From NCBI GenBank assembly GCA_947461595.1, contig CANHLZ010000004.1, positions 1-35,548 of the forward strand: a DNA stretch of 35,548 nucleotides, read 5' to 3'. Below the pieces are notes generated by a model. That model worked only from the letters and a program-made list of their open reading frames with translations, ran no database searches and was not told the origin of the DNA. Positions 1,111 to 26,011 of the stretch are shown here, piece by piece. Both the position numbers and the translations under genes were made by a program. The DNA comes from Bacteroidota bacterium. GTDB lineage: Bacteria > Bacteroidota > Bacteroidia > Chitinophagales > Chitinophagaceae. Every line of letters begins with the position of its first letter. The first letter of the stretch is position 1.

Positions 1111-4100
1111 ATGAAAAAACAACTATTTGCATTACTCGGTATCCTCCTAAGTGTCACCGTGTTAGCACAAACCACTGGTACTGAATTATTTTCAGCCATG
1201 CCTTTTAGATTTATGGGTCCAGATGGCAACAGGGCCATTGCCGTTGTGGGGGAGCCTGGAAATCCAATGGTATCCTATGTGGGTGCAGCCTCTGGAGGAA
1301 TTTTTAAAACCACAGATGCGGGTATACATTGGAATCCCATTTTTGATCAAATGGATAATTCTTCAATAGGCGCGTTGGCCATTTCTGAGAGCCATCCTCA
1401 ACAAGTTTGGGCTGGAACAGGGGAGACTTTTGTCATTCGTCCTGCACATGCCAATGGGAATGGTATTTATAAGTCAAGTGATGGTGGAAAAACCTGGCAA
1501 AATAAGGGGTTAAAAGAAACAATTTTAATAAGTAAGGTTATTGTAGATCCAACGGATACGAATACTGTATATGTGGCTGCCATGGGACATATGCATGGAC
1601 CACAACAGGAAAGAGGGGTTTATAAAACTACCAATGGCGGACAAAGTTGGGAGCGTATTTTATTTGTAGATGAAAATACAGGTTGTATAGATTTATCCTT
1701 AAATGGCAAAGACACTAAAAATTTAGTGGCTGCTATGTGGCAAGTGGATATTAAAACCTGGAATTTAAATAGTGGTGGACCAGGTAGTGGTTTTTATAAA
1801 ACCAATGATGGTGGTAAAACTTGGAAGCCAATGCAAAATGGTTTACCAGGAGGTGCAGGTCATCCAGTGGGAAAAACTTCTATTGATTTTGCGCAAAGTA
1901 ATCCCTCAACTATTTATGCATTAGTAGAAGACAAAGTACCTGGATTATATAAATCAATAGATGGAGGTGAGCATTGGAAACTTATGTATCAAGCGCATTC
2001 TATGGCACAACGCGCTGCTTATTATACAAGGGTGCGTGTGTCTACTCAGGATGAAAATAAATTGTATACTATTTGTGTAACTATAATGGAGTCAAAAGAT
2101 GGGGGTGTTACTTTTAATGGCGAAGGAACTTATGAACCAGGAGGGGACAATCATGATATTTGGTTTGATCCTAAAAACGCAAAAAGAATTATGGTAGCGC
2201 ATGATGGAGGTTTGAATATGAGTTCCAACGCAGGAGAATCATGGAGCAATATTAATTTACCTATTGCGCAAATGTATCATGTGGCCGTTGATAATATGAT
2301 TCCATATCATTTAATGGGCAATAGACAGGATGGGTATTCTTATCGAACTGCAGCCATTAGCATGCAAGGCTCCATCCCATTAGGTTTATGGGAAGGCGTG
2401 GGCGGATGTGAAAGTGGTTTTGCACAGCCTGATCCATTTGATAATAATATTATTTGGTCTGGTTGTTATGATGGGGGATTAGACGTGACTGATGTTAGAA
2501 CTGGTTATTCTCATGATGTTCGTCCTTGGCCGGAAGCTGGATTTGGTTGGGCTCCAGCAGATATGAAATATCGTTGGCATTGGAATTTTCCGATGGCTTT
2601 ATCGAAACATCAGAAAGGGGTGGTGTATGTAGGAAGTCAATATGTACATAAAACTTCTAATCAAGGAATGTCCTGGACAGTAATTAGTCCTGATTTAACC
2701 ACGAATGATAAATCACATCAACAAAATTCAGGGGGAATGAATTCGGATAACCTCATGACATTTGATGGTTGTACTTTGTATGTGATTGCAGAGTCGCCAG
2801 TAAAGCAAGGTGTCTTATGGACTGGAACTAATGACGGACAAATTCAAGTAACGGTGAATGAAGGAAAAACTTGGAGCAATGTTACACAAAATTTAAAAGG
2901 CATTGCACCATGGGGAACTATTCGAAGTATTGATCCTTCCAATTTTGATGCAGGTACTGCTTACATTAGTATTTCTTATCAACAATTAGGCGATTTCAAA
3001 CCTTATATTTTCAAAACATCAGATTATGGTAAAACTTGGAAAGCAATAGGGGCAGGCATTCCAGCGAGTAATAGTTCTTTTGTACATAGCATTAAGGAAG
3101 ATCCTGCGCAAAAAGGTTTATTGTATGCAGGAACAGACAATGGCTTGTATATAAGTCCAGATGATGGAGCAACATGGGTTGCGTTAAAAAATAATTTACC
3201 TCCAGCACCCGTTTATTATATTGCTATTCAAAAAAACTTTAGAGATTTAGTATTGGCCACCTATGGTCGTGGTTTTTATATTTTAGATGACATAACACCC
3301 ATAAGAGAATGGAGTAAGCAAACTGTAAGAAATAAAAATGAATTATTTGCACCAAAGCAAGCATATAGATTTCATTACAAGACAGGTATTCATTCCGAGT
3401 CTTCCATGTCTACAGGTCAAAATCCACCTTATGGCGCGAGTATAAATTATTATTTAGCAGATCATGTTCAGGAGAATCCATCTATTATTATTTTGAATCA
3501 AAAGGGAGATACCATTAATAAAATAGAGGGCAGTAAACAAAAAGGTTTTAATAGAGTCTGGTGGAACCTAGCACATACTTCAATTGTATTACCTCCTTTA
3601 AAAACAATACCTGATCAAAAAAATTATATTAAATTAGATTCCGCAGGAAACAGACCTTTAAATATTTATGATTTAGATATTGGCCCAGGGCTAACACCAA
3701 TTAAAGTGCCTGCAGGAAAGTATACGGTAGTTTTGAAGTTGGGAAGTTTTGTGCAAAAGCAAGACCTACAAGTATTCAATGATCCAAATCTACATTCAAA
3801 CAGCGCTTCTATACAAGCACAATATGATTTAGGTAAACAACTCTTGTCTAGTATTAATAATTGTTTATCCTTAATAGAGCGTATGGAAGTGAATCGAGCT
3901 AATTTTTTAAAACAAAATACCAGTGAAAGTATATTAAAAGAAAAGGAAGTGTATCATTTAGAAAAGCAATTGTTTGAAATTCATTTAACAGGCGCTAGAA
4001 TGGATGTTTTTAGAAATCCAGCTCAAATTTTAGAACGTCTTCTTGCCATTTCTTCTGAATGTCAAACTATGGGAGCTGATTTTGCACCAACAGCGCAACA

Positions 4101-4173
4101 AAAATTAGTTTACCAAGCTTTGAATAGCCAATTAAAGAAAGTAGAACTTTCTTATTTGCAATTAAAACTCTAA
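1111..4173 (+). CDS. VPS10/sortilin-like glycosyl hydrolase-type beta-propeller protein, secreted
   Basis: 1020 aa, signal peptide (MKKQLFALLGILLSVTVLAQ), many Asp-box repeats (KSSDGGKTWQ, KTNDGGKTWK, KTSDYGKTWK). Confidence 0.88.
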   Translation: MKKQLFALLGILLSVTVLAQTTGTELFSAMPFRFMGPDGNRAIAVVGEPGNPMVSYVGAASGGIFKTTDAGIHWNPIFDQMDNSSIGALAISESHPQQVWAGTGETFVIRPAHANGNGIYKSSDGGKTWQNKGLKETILISKVIVDPTDTNTVYVAAMGHMHGPQQERGVYKTTNGGQSWERILFVDENTGCIDLSLNGKDTKNLVAAMWQVDIKTWNLNSGGPGSGFYKTNDGGKTWKPMQNGLPGGAGHPVGKTSIDFAQSNPSTIYALVEDKVPGLYKSIDGGEHWKLMYQAHSMAQRAAYYTRVRVSTQDENKLYTICVTIMESKDGGVTFNGEGTYEPGGDNHDIWFDPKNAKRIMVAHDGGLNMSSNAGESWSNINLPIAQMYHVAVDNMIPYHLMGNRQDGYSYRTAAISMQGSIPLGLWEGVGGCESGFAQPDPFDNNIIWSGCYDGGLDVTDVRTGYSHDVRPWPEAGFGWAPADMKYRWHWNFPMALSKHQKGVVYVGSQYVHKTSNQGMSWTVISPDLTTNDKSHQQNSGGMNSDNLMTFDGCTLYVIAESPVKQGVLWTGTNDGQIQVTVNEGKTWSNVTQNLKGIAPWGTIRSIDPSNFDAGTAYISISYQQLGDFKPYIFKTSDYGKTWKAIGAGIPASNSSFVHSIKEDPAQKGLLYAGTDNGLYISPDDGATWVALKNNLPPAPVYYIAIQKNFRDLVLATYGRGFYILDDITPIREWSKQTVRNKNELFAPKQAYRFHYKTGIHSESSMSTGQNPPYGASINYYLADHVQENPSIIILNQKGDTINKIEGSKQKGFNRVWWNLAHTSIVLPPLKTIPDQKNYIKLDSAGNRPLNIYDLDIGPGLTPIKVPAGKYTVVLKLGSFVQKQDLQVFNDPNLHSNSASIQAQYDLGKQLLSSINNCLSLIERMEVNRANFLKQNTSESILKEKEVYHLEKQLFEIHLTGARMDVFRNPAQILERLLAISSECQTMGADFAPTAQQKLVYQALNSQLKKVELSYLQLKL

Positions 4174-17097: not shown

Positions 17098-17126
17098 GGG
17101 CGGTGTTTCTACACTGCCCTTTTTTT
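17098..17126 (+). terminator. Rho-independent terminator of tRNA-like gene
   Basis: GGGCGGTGT-ttct-ACACTGCCC followed by TTTTTTT (one G-U pair). Confidence 0.85.
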
Positions 17127-17697
17127 ATTTATTATTTCTCTTGTATTGAAATCTGAATACAAAGGCAATAATTAACAACAAGGCGCAAATTTCAACTAAT
17201 AATTTTTCAGGATCTATAAAATCTATGGGCCTATCTTTTAATAAGGGGTCCATTACGAGTCCATGCACAATAAATAAAAGTCCTGTGCCATAGGAAATGA
17301 CATGTATATTTCTCCAAGTACGTGTTCCTATTTTATTTTTAATCACTTTCTGTGTTGTAATAATAACCACTAATAAAGCTAAAAATGAAATAACCCCAAT
17401 CGTTACAAATAAAGCTTGATGCGGGGCGGTCCATGGTTGAATTAAATGTGTATAGGTAAATTTGGAGCTGGGATCCAATGGAATAATTAGAAAGTGCACC
17501 AAGACCAAGCCCAATGCGATATAGGCAGTGTAGTTGTGTACATCAATTAATTTAATGGCTTTAACTTTTGAAGGCAATCTTTGCCATAAAGCAGTTTTTT
17601 TATAGGAAGTACTAATTCCTATACCCATCATAATGTTAACAGTTAAAAGCACCATGGCTATTAAACCAATGCTTCCAGCAATATCTATTGTTTCCAT
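17125..17697 (-). CDS. Ferric-reductase-like transmembrane protein with bis-His diheme pattern, no FAD/NAD domain
   Basis: 190 aa, multiple hydrophobic helices; H-x13-H (HNYTAYIALGLVLVH) and H-x12-H (HVISYGTGLLFIVH). Confidence 0.72.
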   Translation of the reverse strand: METIDIAGSIGLIAMVLLTVNIMMGIGISTSYKKTALWQRLPSKVKAIKLIDVHNYTAYIALGLVLVHFLIIPLDPSSKFTYTHLIQPWTAPHQALFVTIGVISFLALLVVIITTQKVIKNKIGTRTWRNIHVISYGTGLLFIVHGLVMDPLLKDRPIDFIDPEKLLVEICALLLIIAFVFRFQYKRNNK

Positions 17698-17919
17698 AAA
17701 TTATAGTATGTGATTGATTATTTTACCCTAAAGATACTGAACTCTGTTATGAATTCTTTTACCCTCTAAAGTCAAACAAATAATATAATAACAACATATA
17801 TTATCTAAACTTAAAACTGCCTTATTAATGATATAGTTTAGTTAATATTCCTATCAATTGATGTTTTAACATTAAATAGCAACGATATTTGCTGCAAGTT
17901 TACCTTTCAATTATAATCG

Positions 17920-18366
17920 ATGAAAACTATAGTATTTGCTTTTTTAACCTTATGGATCTCTACCACTACATTCGCTCAGGACTGGGGTCATAATTATACT
18001 CAAGCCACCGCTACTGCCCTAAAAGAACATAAACTTATTTTAGTCAATTTTTCTGGATCTGATTGGTGTGGCCCCTGTATTAAATTACATAAAGAAGTTT
18101 TTACATCGGATGTATTCATAAAAGTAGCCAATGAAAAATTGGTCTTATTGAATGCAGATTTTCCAAGATTGAAAAAAAATCAATTACCAGCAGCGCAACA
18201 AAAAATAAATGAATCCTTGGCGGATCAATTTAATAATAAAGGGGTTTTCCCTTTAACCGTATTAATTTCATCCGATGGTAAGGTTATAAAAAGTTGGGAT
18301 GGATTTCCTTCTTCCATTGAAGCATTTAATAATGATTTACAACAAACCATTCAAGACAATCAATAA
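17920..18366 (+). CDS. Exported thioredoxin-family protein
   Basis: Signal peptide MKTIVFAFLTLWISTTTFAQ; SGSDWCGPCIKLHKEVF active site. Confidence 0.9.
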   Translation: MKTIVFAFLTLWISTTTFAQDWGHNYTQATATALKEHKLILVNFSGSDWCGPCIKLHKEVFTSDVFIKVANEKLVLLNADFPRLKKNQLPAAQQKINESLADQFNNKGVFPLTVLISSDGKVIKSWDGFPSSIEAFNNDLQQTIQDNQ

Positions 18367-18368
18367 GC

Positions 18369-19304
18369 ATGGCTACTTTGTCAATGTATAAAAAGGAAAT
18401 GAAGTTGATGGGCAATCACTTTGAAATAACAGTGGTGGCTGAAGACGAAGGATGGGCCTATGAACAAATAGACAAAGGGGTAAAAGAAATACAAAGAATC
18501 GAACAATTACTTACTACGTTTTCAGAAAATAGCGAAACCAATTTAATTAATCACAGTGCAGGAATTGCTGCAGTGAAAGTGAGTACTGAAATAATTGAGC
18601 TTATACAAAGAGCTTTAAAAATCTCTTCTGTGACTCAAGGGGCATTTGACCTAACTTATGGGTCTGTAGATAAAAGCCTTTGGAATTTTGATACGACTAT
18701 GACTTCTTTACCAAGCAAAGAGCTTGCCAAAAAAAGCGTTCGGTTGATTAATTATAAACATATCATTATCGATACAGAAAAATCGACAGTCTTTTTAAAA
18801 GAAAAGGGAATGCGCATTGGATTTGGAGGCATTGGCAAAGGATATGCTGCCGAAAATGCTAAAAGAATCATGCAAGAAGCTGGTGTTAAAAGTGGCGTGG
18901 TGAATGCTTCTGGTGATTTGACTACCTGGGGTAAACAAGCTAATGGCGAAAAATGGAACATAGGAATTGTACATCCCGAATTGGCTTCTGCTATTTTTTC
19001 ATATATGAACATAAGTGAATTATCAGTTGCTACTTCGGGCAATTATGAAAAATTTATTATGATTGATGGCGAAAAATATTCACATACCATTAATCCTAGA
19101 ACCGGTTTGCCTGTCAAAGGCATTAAAAGTGTTACCATTGTGTCTACCAATGCTGAAATTGCAGATGCTATGGCTACTCCAGTAATGATTATGGGCATCC
19201 ATGCGGGTTTAGATATGATTAATCAAATAAAAGACATGGAAGCTATTATTATTGACGATGACAATCGTTTATATACTTCTGATAATATAAAGTTGACGAA
19301 ATAA
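18369..19304 (+). CDS. apbE: FAD:protein FMN transferase (ApbE family)
   Basis: IGFGGIGKGYAAENA, VNASGDLTTWG, SVATSGNYEKF, YSHTINPRTGLPV, ADAMATPVMIMG blocks typical of ApbE. Confidence 0.93.
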   Translation: MATLSMYKKEMKLMGNHFEITVVAEDEGWAYEQIDKGVKEIQRIEQLLTTFSENSETNLINHSAGIAAVKVSTEIIELIQRALKISSVTQGAFDLTYGSVDKSLWNFDTTMTSLPSKELAKKSVRLINYKHIIIDTEKSTVFLKEKGMRIGFGGIGKGYAAENAKRIMQEAGVKSGVVNASGDLTTWGKQANGEKWNIGIVHPELASAIFSYMNISELSVATSGNYEKFIMIDGEKYSHTINPRTGLPVKGIKSVTIVSTNAEIADAMATPVMIMGIHAGLDMINQIKDMEAIIIDDDNRLYTSDNIKLTK

Positions 19305-19328
19305 TAAATTAAAAAGCTAAAAAATAAA

Positions 19329-19547
19329 ATGAAAAAAAATTACTTATTTATTTCAGCAGTATGGATGCTAATATTTGCCAGTTCTTGTGAAACTGTAAAA
19401 GAGTATCAAAAAAATAGATTAAACGATTCTGAAATGGCATTGAATGCAAGAAGAGTTGAAAAAAACGAACTTAATTTCCAATCTTATAAAGAAGGCGCCT
19501 CAGGGGCCAATGGTGGAAAAACAGGGGGTGGTTGTGGTTGCAATTAA
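19329..19547 (+). CDS. DUF4266-family small lipoprotein
   Basis: 72 aa; N-terminal signal with lipobox-like ASSC; VKEYQKNRLNDSEMALNARRVEKNELNFQSYKEGASGANGGKTGGGCGCN. Confidence 0.88.
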   Translation: MKKNYLFISAVWMLIFASSCETVKEYQKNRLNDSEMALNARRVEKNELNFQSYKEGASGANGGKTGGGCGCN

Positions 19548-19575
19548 TTTTGTTTATTGTTTTATTTAGTTTTTA

Positions 19576-20871
19576 ATGAAAAAAATATCCCTCACTCTTA
19601 TTGGCCTATATTTATTATTTCTACATGGGTTTTCTCAAGTAACGGAACATTACACTCAAGTTTTTAAATCGAAGCCATTAAAGTTGGAAGAGATTAATTT
19701 AGTTACAAGTTACTATTCTCAAACCGGAAGCCATTCGGCAGTAACTGGCGGGGGTAATGGTATTATTGGTACACAAGTATTAAATGGTTCAGAACAATTA
19801 ACCGATTTTGCTAATATTTTGGAATTGAAATTAGTAGGTTACAGTGAAACCGGGATCAAACATACTATTCTTGCTGGTTTGGGTGTAGACCATCATACTG
19901 CTGCATCTCAAAGATGGATTTCAAGCACTGGGGCTTCATCGCCAGAAGGTACAAGAGTTTATCCTTCTATCAATTGGACTCAAGAAAATGAAGCAAAAGG
20001 AACTGAATTTGGATTCGGTTCTTATTATTCCCATGAATACAATTATAATTCATTTGCCCTAGATGGTCATTATGGTTTTAAAAATAAAACTGGTGGTGAA
20101 TTTAGTGGAAAAGTGTCTGCGTATTTTGATCAAGTAAAATTAATTTATCCATCAGAACTAATTCCATTTACAACAGATGGAGTGACTCCTTATGAAGTAA
20201 ATATTATAAAAACAAATGCTAGTAGAGGAGGAGCTAGTTATTATCCTTCAGGAGCTGATATTAAAACAAGTATACCCACATCTCCAAGGAATACCTATAC
20301 AGGTTCTTTAACCTATTCTCAGGTCATCAACAAAAGTGCTCAGTTTTCCTTATTATTAGATATAGTTAAGCAAGATGGTTGGTTAGGTTTGCCTTTTCAT
20401 AGAGTATTTTTTACCAATGGTAGTGAAAAAGTTGAAAATCTACCTCACACTAGGTTAAAAGTACCGATAGGGGCACGTTTTAATTATTTTATTGGCGATG
20501 ATATTATCGTAAGGACCTATTACCGTTTTTACACCGACGACTGGGGATTGGTTTCTCATACAGCCAGCATTGAATTGCCTTATAAGTTTACGCCCTTTTT
20601 CTCCATTTCCCCTTTTTATAGGTTTTATACTCAAACGGCTACCAAGTATTTTGCACCTTTAGGAATGCACTCAACCCTTGACACTTATTTTACGAGTAAT
20701 TACTCCTCTGCCGCTTTTAATAGTAATTATTTTGGGATTGGATTAAGATCGGCACCTCCAGGGGGGTTTTCAAATTCTTTTTTATCTGCTTTAGAGTTAA
20801 GGTACGGTCATTATGCTCAAAGTACCGACCTCAATTCCAACGTCATTTCATTGCATTTTACGCTTAAATAA
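19576..20871 (+). CDS. DUF3570-family probable outer-membrane beta-barrel
   Basis: Signal peptide; SYYSQTGSHSAVTGGGNGIIGTQVLNGSEQLTDFAN and amphipathic strand-like C-terminus; directly downstream of DUF4266. Confidence 0.85.
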   Translation: MKKISLTLIGLYLLFLHGFSQVTEHYTQVFKSKPLKLEEINLVTSYYSQTGSHSAVTGGGNGIIGTQVLNGSEQLTDFANILELKLVGYSETGIKHTILAGLGVDHHTAASQRWISSTGASSPEGTRVYPSINWTQENEAKGTEFGFGSYYSHEYNYNSFALDGHYGFKNKTGGEFSGKVSAYFDQVKLIYPSELIPFTTDGVTPYEVNIIKTNASRGGASYYPSGADIKTSIPTSPRNTYTGSLTYSQVINKSAQFSLLLDIVKQDGWLGLPFHRVFFTNGSEKVENLPHTRLKVPIGARFNYFIGDDIIVRTYYRFYTDDWGLVSHTASIELPYKFTPFFSISPFYRFYTQTATKYFAPLGMHSTLDTYFTSNYSSAAFNSNYFGIGLRSAPPGGFSNSFLSALELRYGHYAQSTDLNSNVISLHFTLK

Positions 20872-20991: not shown

Positions 20992-23900
20992 ATGAAACAG
21001 ATCATTTTACGCAGTTTATTTTTCTTTTTATTGCCTACCATTGTTATTGCACAAAAGAAAAAAGAAACTCCGAAACCAGTAACCACAGTAAACACGGTTA
21101 ACGAAACCGAATATTATAAACCATTGTTATGGAGAAACCTGGGACCTACGAGAGGAGGTCGTTCCGTTACTTCCGTTGGTGTTGCTGGAAATAGCTATAC
21201 CTATTATATGGGGACTACAGGTGGTGGAATATGGAAAACAGAAGACGCAGGCCAAACCTGGAATAATATTTCTGATGGTTATTTTAAAACAGGGTCAGTA
21301 GGCGCTGTTGCAGTTTCAGCTTCAGATCCAAATGTAGTATATGTGGGCATGGGAGAGCATGCTCCAAGAGGAGTGACCTCAAGTTATGGAGATGGTATTT
21401 ATAAAAGTACAGATGCCGGAAAAACATGGAATCATTTAGGTTTGGAATTAACCAGACAAATAGCCAATATTCGTATTCATCCCACCAATCCAGATATTGT
21501 TTATGTAGCAGCGCAAGGGGCGATACATGGCGCAAGTCCTGAGAGAGGGGTGTACAAATCGGTGGATGGTGGAAAAACTTGGGCTAAAACTTTGTTTGTA
21601 GATGACAATTCAGGTTGTGTGGATTTAAGTATGGATATGAATAATCCTAGAATTTTATATGCAGCTATGTGGGATTATCGTCGTTTACCTTGGGAGGTAA
21701 AAAGTGGAGGTAAAGGAAGTGGCTTGTACAAAAGTACAGATGGTGGTGATACTTGGGAAAAAATTCAAAATGGCTTGCCTAAGGAATTAGGTAAAATGAG
21801 TGTATCTGTTTCGCAAGCCAATTCCAATAAGATTTATTTAGTAGTAGAGAGTGATACAGAAAAAGAACAAGGTGGTTTATTTGTTTCAGAGGATGCAGGA
21901 AAATCATGGAATAGAATTAGTAAGGACCATAGACTGGTTCAACGTGCCTGGTATTATATTGAAGCCATTGCAGATCCGGTAGATGAAAATACAGTGTATG
22001 TTTTAAATTCTCCAGCTATTAAAAGTACAGATGGTGGAAAAACTTGGCAAAGTTTTAGAGCACCTCATGGTGACTATCATCAATTGTGGATCAACCCAAT
22101 GAATAATAAAAATATGATTGTTTCCAATGACGGAGGCGCTGCTATTTCTTTTAATGGCGGTAAAACATGGAGCTCTCAAAACAATCAACCTACCGCACAA
22201 TTTTATAGAGTCAATGCTGATAATTTATTTCCATTTAATTTATATGCTGGTCAACAAGATAATACCAGTGTAAAAATTGCCAGTCAAACAACTTCAAGAG
22301 GAGGTATAACAGATCGTGATTGGACTTATAGTGCAGGGGGTGAGTCTGCATTTTTAGCATTTGATCCCAACGATCCAAGATATGTTTTAGGTGGATCTTA
22401 TCAAGGTACTATTGGAGTATTAGATACAAAAATAAATGAACAAGTTAGCGTAATGGTGGCTCCAGTGCAATATCAAGCTTTGCAACCAAAAGATATGAAA
22501 TATCGTTTCAATTGGAATGCTCCTATTGTTAGATCCGTGCATGAAGATGCTTATTACCATGCAGGCAATATTTTATTTAAAACAACCGACTTAGGAAAAA
22601 CTTGGAAAGCGATTTCTCCAGATTTAACTACGCATGATACTTCAAAAATGGGAATCAGCGGTACCCCTTATACCAATGAAGGCGCAGGCGGTGAAAACTA
22701 TTGCACCATCGCTTATGTGATGGAGTCTCCTCATGAGAAAGGAGTTATTTATACAGGAAGTGATGATGGGTTGGTTCATATCACTAAAGATGGAGGAGCT
22801 ACATGGACCAATATTACACCCGATGGTGTAAAAGGGACATTGGTGAATTCTATAGAAGTTTCTCCATTTGAAAAAGGCACAGCGTATATCGCAGTAACAA
22901 AATATAAGTTTAATGATTTCACGCCATTGATGTATAAAACAACCGATTATGGAAAAACTTGGACCAAACTGGTTGATGGTATTCCTTATGGCGCTTTTGT
23001 ACGAGTAATACGTGAAGACAATGCGGTTAAAGATTTATTGTATGCAGGAACTGAAACAGGGTTTTATATTTCATACAATGGCGGTGTCAATTGGAAGCAA
23101 TTGCAATTAAATTTGCCTATTGTAGCTATTACGGATTTGAAATTGCATCATGATAAATTATTGGCGTCCACACAAGGACGTGCTTTTTGGATTTTAGATG
23201 ATTTAGTACCGCTTAGAAAAGCTGCTTCTAATTTAAATAATGCTTTTACTTTATTGCCTGTTACGAATGTTTATAGATTAAGTGCAGGCAGTCCATTAGA
23301 CAGACAATTTAGCGAAGACGAAAACCCTATTAAGATAAACACTACTATGGTGAATCCTGCAAGCGGTGCGGTTATTTATTATCATATACAAAACAAAGAC
23401 TCCGTTAAAAAATTAACCATTGAAGTGTTGGATGCAGCTAATAATGTCATTCGAACTTATTATAATGAAAAGCCTAGCGCTGTAACTAGTAACAATAGTT
23501 TAAATGGAGATCCAAAAGTAGAAGTGAGATCGGGCTTAAATCGATTTGTATGGAGTTTAAATTACCCTAATTTACCTTCCATTGACAATGTATACATTGA
23601 AGGAAGTAGTGCAGGTCGTACCGTTGCACCAGGTGAATTTACGATCCGATTAAAAATCAATGATGCTGAACAAACTGCTAAATTTAAGGTCTTGGCTGAT
23701 CCTAGAATTAATGCTACTGATGCGGACTATGCATTACAGGATCGTATGTTAAAATTAACTTCAGATGATGTAGAAGCGATACATGTATCGGTAGTGCAAA
23801 TGCGTAAAGTGCAAGAGCAACTGAATCAATTTGTTAAAAGAGCAGAGGGTATAAAAGCAATGGAGGCATTGGTTAAGACTTCAAAAGAGTTAACAAAAAA

Positions 23901-24180
23901 TATAAAAATTTGGGAAGAAAAGTTAATTCAACCCAAGTCTCAAAGCAATGACGATGTCATTAATTTTGTAAATAAATTAAGCGCTAATTTAATTTTCTTA
24001 AAAGGAGAAATGGATAACAATGTACCTTATATTACAGAAGGTGAATTGAAGCGTTATGATGAATTACACGGAGAATGGAAAATACTGGAGCAACAAAAAT
24101 TAGACTTGGCTAACGCAATTAAAAATTTCAATGATGCTTGTAGAAAAGCCAATTGGGATTTTGTAGGGGTTGAAAATTAA
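20992..24180 (+). CDS. VPS10/sortilin-like beta-propeller protein, secreted
   Basis: 1062 aa, signal peptide, [20 protein letters not shown], many Asp-box repeats ([30 protein letters not shown]). Confidence 0.9.
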
Positions 24181-25522: not shown

Positions 25523-26011
25523 TTAGTGTGGCAGCTTTTCTTTAAAATAACCATAGGTCCAGGTACCCAATAATGCACTAGCTATGACAATACTTATAGA
25601 ACCAATACCAGCGCCAATTTGAGCGAACAATGGACCAGGGCAGGCACCTGTCATAGCCCAACCCAAACCAAAAAGTAATCCACCATAAATATTTCCTTTC
25701 GTAAATGGTTTATTGGCAATAACGATGTTTTCTTTTTGTAAAGTTTTGATTTTAAATTTTTTGAGAAGTGCAACAGAAAGGGCACCTACAACTACGGCTG
25801 TTCCAATGACCCCATACATGTGAAAGCTTTGAAGTTTAAACATTTCTTGAATTCTAAACCAAGAAATAATTTCTGCTTTTACAAAAACAATTCCAAATAC
25901 AATACCTACTATACTGTATTTAATTAAGCTAAGGGCGGTTTCTTTTTTTACCGAATCGTTGAGTGGTATTGATTTATCTGAATTAACTATCGCAGTATTA
26001 TCTGACATCAT
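25523..26011 (-). CDS. YeeE/YedE-family (PmpB-like) sulfur transport protein
   Basis: FTKGNIYGGLLFGLGWAMTGACPGPLFAQIGAG, conserved GACPGP motif. Confidence 0.85.
   Translation of the reverse strand: MMSDNTAIVNSDKSIPLNDSVKKETALSLIKYSIVGIVFGIVFVKAEIISWFRIQEMFKLQSFHMYGVIGTAVVVGALSVALLKKFKIKTLQKENIVIANKPFTKGNIYGGLLFGLGWAMTGACPGPLFAQIGAGIGSISIVIASALLGTWTYGYFKEKLPH

Follow-up and report, generated by a model that had tools for sequence, protein, structure and literature searches.

A DsbD-unlinked thioredoxin, ApbE, DUF4266, and DUF3570 cassette of the Chitinophagaceae with two flavin attachment sites predicted on the outer rim of a membrane barrel

Results

The subject of this work is a gene cassette in a 35,548-nucleotide stretch of a Bacteroidota genome of the Chitinophagaceae (assembly GCA_947461595.1, contig CANHLZ010000004.1); the whole stretch is called the window, is contig C4 of our survey, and comes from an assembly of 1.77 Mb that is 73.7% complete. 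The cassette spans positions 17920 to 20871 of the plus strand and consists of genes for an exported thioredoxin, the flavin transferase ApbE, a DUF4266 lipoprotein, and a DUF3570 outer membrane barrel, separated by 2 bp, 24 bp, and 28 bp, respectively. A sequence-only reading of the window had described these packed genes together with a divergent gene for a membrane protein, and when the five open reading frames were re-read, strands and gaps matched that layout and all five Pfam assignments were borne out. The features of the locus are as follows (FMN, flavin mononucleotide; FAD, flavin adenine dinucleotide; aa, amino acids).

17125..17697, minus strand: divergent diheme (Ferric_reduct) membrane protein, 190 aa; Pfam Ferric_reduct 29.3 bits (cut-off 28)
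17920..18366, plus strand: exported thioredoxin-like protein, CGPC, 148 aa; Thioredoxin_7 39 bits (cut-off 27)
18369..19304, plus strand: ApbE, FAD:protein FMN transferase, 311 aa, without signal peptide; ApbE 264.9 bits (cut-off 25.6)
19329..19547, plus strand: DUF4266 lipoprotein, 72 aa, lipobox Cys20, C-terminal GGGCGCN; Pfam 68.1 bits (cut-off 27)
19533..19544, plus strand: CXC tail of DUF4266, Cys69-Gly-Cys71-Asn72; C69 and C71 invariant in 103 sequences
19576..20871, plus strand: DUF3570 outer membrane beta-barrel, 431 aa, predicted ApbE substrate; Pfam 97 bits (cut-off 25)
19888..19938, plus strand: predicted double FMN attachment segment of DUF3570, D105-S121, beta3-beta4 loop; T108-A-A-S111 and T118-G-A-S121
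20992..24180, plus strand: secreted VPS10/BNR beta-propeller protein, 1062 aa; Sortilin-Vps10 118.2 bits; 120 bp downstream of DUF3570

The cassette recurs far above chance. In a neighborhood survey of 102 loci, comprising the window and its relatives and picked in part by DUF3570, a DUF3570 gene lay beside DUF4266 in 101 of 101 DUF4266 loci, ApbE was present in 95, and this thioredoxin was present in 79. Moreover, DUF3570 was found in all 52 loci of the family that had been picked by DUF4266 alone (L084 to L135), and the gene order of the cassette was seen in roughly 100 loci. Thus, the co-occurrence of thioredoxin, ApbE, DUF4266, and DUF3570 supposed by the sequence-only reading is conserved. 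The cassette is widespread among genomes of the family, 48 of 150 of which carry DUF4266. In the Chlorobi loci, a TlpA-like protein replaces this thioredoxin and DsbD is linked. Some Chlorobi-like genomes (L161, L162, and others) hold several DUF3570 copies, with up to nine match places per genome and some in tandem with a DUF4266 of their own.

The combination of genes has a published precedent. A full-text search of the Creative Commons-licensed literature found only one paper that names DUF4266 or DUF3570, although later work may exist elsewhere: Meheust et al. 2021 (PMC8238504) described clusters of DsbD, ApbE, DUF3570, a Thioredoxin_7 protein, and DUF4266, as well as 316 clusters of the same ApbE, DUF3570, thioredoxin, and DUF4266 genes in the absence of DsbD. 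The novelty that the sequence-only reading had left to be checked is therefore not upheld. Like the published clusters, the window combines the four families, each above its Pfam cut-off, and its DUF4266 ends in the CXC (C69-G70-C71-N72) already remarked in that paper. Unlike them, the window links no DsbD to the cassette, a trait shared with the 316, its ApbE lacks the signal peptide or lipidation site by which the paper filtered for extracytosolic genes, and the cassette is flanked by the diheme gene and the VPS10/BNR gene. We therefore place the window cassette in the published group, among the members that have no linked DsbD.

Which cassette protein carries the flavin was read from conserved residues. 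The sequence-only reading had placed the flavin on the DUF4266 lipoprotein, and we reject that candidate: an alignment of 103 DUF4266 sequences contained no conserved [S/T]GA[S/T], Ser58 is variable, and what is invariant is the C-terminal GGGCGCN. Residues kept throughout the alignment are C20 of the lipobox, M36, E55, C69, and C71. DUF3570, by contrast, is the demonstrated substrate: that of Chlorobium luteolum, the only organism for which this was shown, received flavin from its cognate ApbE at two [S/T]GA[S/T] sites (PMC8238504). In the window protein, site 2 is the canonical T118-G-A-S121, and site 1 reads TAAS where the aligned Chlorobi residues are mostly SGAS or TGAS. S111, A110, and T/S108 of site 1 are each kept in 106 of 108 sequences (98%). 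Because DUF4266 has no conserved motif and the attachment sites of DUF3570 are conserved, the flavins are assigned to DUF3570, with S111 and S121 as the predicted sites.

Both sites are predicted to lie on the extracellular rim of the barrel. An AlphaFold2 model of the window DUF3570, built with 60 sequences (predicted local distance difference test [pLDDT] 85.8, predicted template modeling score [pTM] 0.80), is a barrel of 16 strands, and a Chlorobi homologue that is about 20% identical was modeled with the same architecture (pLDDT 82.4, pTM 0.80). In both models, the two attachment serines sit in the beta3-beta4 loop, and because the strand number is even and the termini are periplasmic, that loop should be extracellular. 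Loops on the side of the FMN sites are 2 to 46 residues long in the window model, and those opposite are 2 to 10. Conserved residues are biased in the same direction: 9 of 9 invariant residues are on the outer half (P = 0.02 versus all barrel residues), as are 18 of the 22 strand residues that are invariant or near-invariant (P = 0.004). Solved relatives of DUF3570 were not found by sequence, a fold search gave just generic porins at low TM-scores, and a 2024 paper modeling flavinylated domains shows no DUF3570 model (PMC11334425). The topology prediction yields a concrete hypothesis in which two rim flavins would be within reach of extracellular acceptors.

The missing export signal of ApbE raises the question of the time and place of flavin attachment. 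The cassette ApbE matches solved FMN transferases (e.g., 7esa, E value 2.9e-47), and its N-terminus, MATLSMYKKEMKLMG, has no hydrophobic segment. No signal peptide can be gained by a more upstream start, as the thioredoxin gene stops 2 bp ahead of apbE and the frame stays open for only about 11 further codons. The idea of an exported system thus holds for the thioredoxin, which has a hydrophobic N-terminus and whose CxPC motif is kept in 79 of 80 homologues, but not for ApbE itself. By hydropathy, which is not equal to SignalP, a signal-like segment was found in 11 of 94 cassette ApbEs, mostly of Flavobacteriales and other lineages, and about 80 of the 94 have none, including those of the Chlorobi-type loci and nearly all from the Chitinophagaceae. 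Part of the published survey dropped genes that had no predicted signal or lipidation site (PMC8238504). An ApbE without signal peptide is also known in Klebsiella, where, unlike the exported outer membrane barrel of the window, the substrate is a soluble cytosolic fumarate reductase (PMC12052999). One natural fusion of thioredoxin and ApbE bears a signal peptide (L132:5500-6930), so that ApbE of that genome would be periplasmic.

Since a signal peptide is missing from the cassette ApbE, FMN may be added to DUF3570 before export, and if the FMN sites end up outside, modification must precede barrel insertion whichever side holds ApbE. The C. luteolum barrel, when coexpressed, was mostly in the pellet and yet was flavinylated (PMC8238504), which suggests that unfolded DUF3570 is acceptable as a substrate. 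A tentative extension, to which we give a minority chance, is that a cytosolic ApbE flavinylates the unfolded chain, Sec exports it, and the barrel then displays two surface FMNs as a heme-free electron outlet. If true, flavinylation would occur prior to export, and the outer membrane would have a flavin-based electron port. An alternative would be modification in trans by a second ApbE of the same assembly that bears a signal peptide (L002; G000:C73:6358-7182).

The divergent diheme gene is probably a neighbor of the cassette rather than a part of it. As the sequence-only reading had it, the product is a ferric reductase-like membrane protein with two pairs of heme-ligand histidines: H54/H68 and H132/H145 show no variation among 14 homologues, in keeping with the Ferric_reduct match. 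It resembles MsrQ-like flavinylation systems in that a diheme protein of PF01794 is near apbE (PMC8238504). Unlike those systems, the window protein has no NAD-binding domain, its linkage is not conserved, and no FMN-binding domain protein (PF04205) was found in its own incomplete assembly. Moreover, it failed the NCBIfam equivalog test for MsrQ (18.8 bits versus a cut-off of 130). Strong homologues are few, about 22 in 399 genomes with few outside the family, and adjacency of the gene to the cassette is confined to the window plus six close relatives (L063 to L068). The survey therefore rejects it as a conserved cassette member.

Elsewhere, the diheme gene keeps other company. At 13 of 22 unlinked loci (L177 to L183, L186 to L189, L191, and L192, all in the Chitinophagaceae), a VPS10/BNR gene lies within 102 bp or is fused to it; at least four arrangements are seen, and two of the loci have in-frame fusions (L179:2854-6570 and L192:4848-8576). 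The chance of such a neighbor is about 1% per locus given 5 to 31 matching stretches per genome, and the loci are not independent, as several share a genus, which makes the formal P value smaller than it should be. In a sister clade at 68% identity, the diheme gene is away from the cassette and, in G443 (C13) and G444 (C23), within 0.5 kb of VPS10/BNR stretches, whereas in the window clade the VPS10/BNR gene follows DUF3570 so that the two genes bracket the cassette. The diheme and VPS10/BNR genes are likely a separate module, with the protein encoded downstream of DUF3570 as the diheme partner. A search of the Creative Commons-licensed literature found no paper tying diheme Ferric_reduct proteins to VPS10/BNR proteins. 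VPS10/BNR matches are numerous in the window's own assembly (G000, 1.77 Mb), with 22 stretches, and another place in the window is 1111-4173.

Discussion

How electrons might reach the barrel is best explained, in our view, by a published type of cassette with a two-FMN, outer-rim DUF3570, a relay fed by DsbD that ends at an extracellular acceptor, and a diheme gene that stands apart. We lean modestly toward this proposal as a whole, which was built from gene order and its conservation, site conservation, the barrel model, and the absent ApbE export signal. ApbE would attach FMN to S111 and S121 of DUF3570 ahead of barrel folding, and the barrel would then enter the outer membrane so that its outer rim carries both FMNs. 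DsbD encoded elsewhere in the genome would supply electrons, which would pass as thiols through the exported thioredoxin to the CXC tail of DUF4266, from there to the FMNs, and finally to an acceptor outside the cell, which would most likely be a metal ion, for example ferric iron. We infer every arrow of this path, which is the most economical one.

What the cassette reduces is suggested by its neighbors. Genes of the VIT1-type iron transporter family neighbor it in 10 loci over four families (L095, L098, L103, L104, L106, L109, L137, L138, L141, and L154; one confirmed by Pfam), and because this agrees with 25 published clusters that contain VIT1 (PMC8238504), iron is favored. The role is most likely that of an electron relay to an extracellular metal, with the acceptor putative. 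The broad idea of an extracytosolic flavin and thiol redox system is thus supported and, of the functions first suggested for it, metal reduction stays possible given these neighbors, while the building of an extracellular cofactor received no support in this analysis.

Several observations weigh against the proposal. DsbD was found neither in the neighborhood nor in the window's own 73.7% complete assembly; because 144 of 150 genomes of the family encode DsbD, as do 7 of 8 from close relatives, its absence is probably due to incompleteness. As a test of the donor, however, DsbD co-occurrence was uninformative, with 144 of 150 genomes positive. The relay step through DUF4266 is putative, and the proposal gives no route for electrons across the outer membrane. 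Site 1 departs from [S/T]GA[S/T], the outer side is assigned by convention, from the parity of the strands and the lengths of the loops, and the loop that holds the sites is modeled with low confidence, with residues 112 to 114 at a pLDDT below 50. VIT1 is found in a minority of loci, and other metal or redox neighbors occur too, including CusA/CusB-like efflux, Rieske, and heme-binding genes. Finally, DUF4266 is carried by 7 of 11 diheme-positive genomes versus 40 of 138 others (Fisher P = 0.024), and a functional link in trans between the diheme gene and the cassette is possible.

That weak enrichment also bears on an alternative in which the divergent diheme protein feeds quinol electrons to the cassette in the manner of MsrQ, with DUF3570 replacing the FMN-binding domain. 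Electron donors of the PF01794 family recur among flavinylated systems (PMC8238504), and the linkage is retained in seven related loci. The linkage does not extend beyond the window clade, however, most cassette genomes have no diheme gene, and the pairing with VPS10/BNR genes, seen even in the sister clade, points elsewhere; we regard such a donor, which the sequence-only reading had favored, as quite unlikely. With the diheme gene taken out of the circuit, experiments need not be spent on the wrong donor; its association with VPS10/BNR proteins offers a new line of inquiry.

Two further alternatives turn on thiols. The flavinylated barrel could be a thiol or sulfur redox device that reduces surface disulfides or polysulfide rather than metals, as the thioredoxin and the invariant CXC of DUF4266 would allow and as might be indicated by the MBL-rhodanese, TauE-like, and sulfur transport genes that the window and sister clade carry close to the cassette. 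VIT1 adjacency spans four families and recurs in the published clusters (PMC8238504), but the sulfur genes are neighbors largely within a single set of related genomes, and we think a sulfur device improbable. Instead, the thioredoxin and CXC lipoprotein could repair or protect outer membrane thiols, with the flavin barrel as an electron sink. DsbD supply is typical of envelope thiol-maintenance systems, and the thioredoxin is nearest, among NCBIfam families, to the DsbH disulfide reductase. That match falls short of the equivalog cut-off (72 versus 190 bits), however, cassette neighborhoods contain no conserved substrate gene, and two outer-rim flavins would be left unexplained; envelope maintenance is thus very unlikely. 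What this analysis adds to the work of Meheust et al. 2021 is the predicted outer-rim placement of the FMN sites, the signal-less ApbE, and the VIT1 neighbors at 10 loci.

Other genes lie near the cassette. A scan for Bacteroidota-type promoters found no excess above chance. The window encodes a sulfur transport family protein (starting at 25523), a TauE-like permease, and an MBL-rhodanese protein between 25523 and 29058, and the sister clade likewise has them close to its cassette. CusA/CusB-like metal efflux genes are near the cassette at L098, L109, L137, L140, and L154. A Rieske 2Fe-2S gene is found near the 5' end of the cassette at L140, L141, L156, and L163, and three of these loci have it upstream of the thioredoxin gene.

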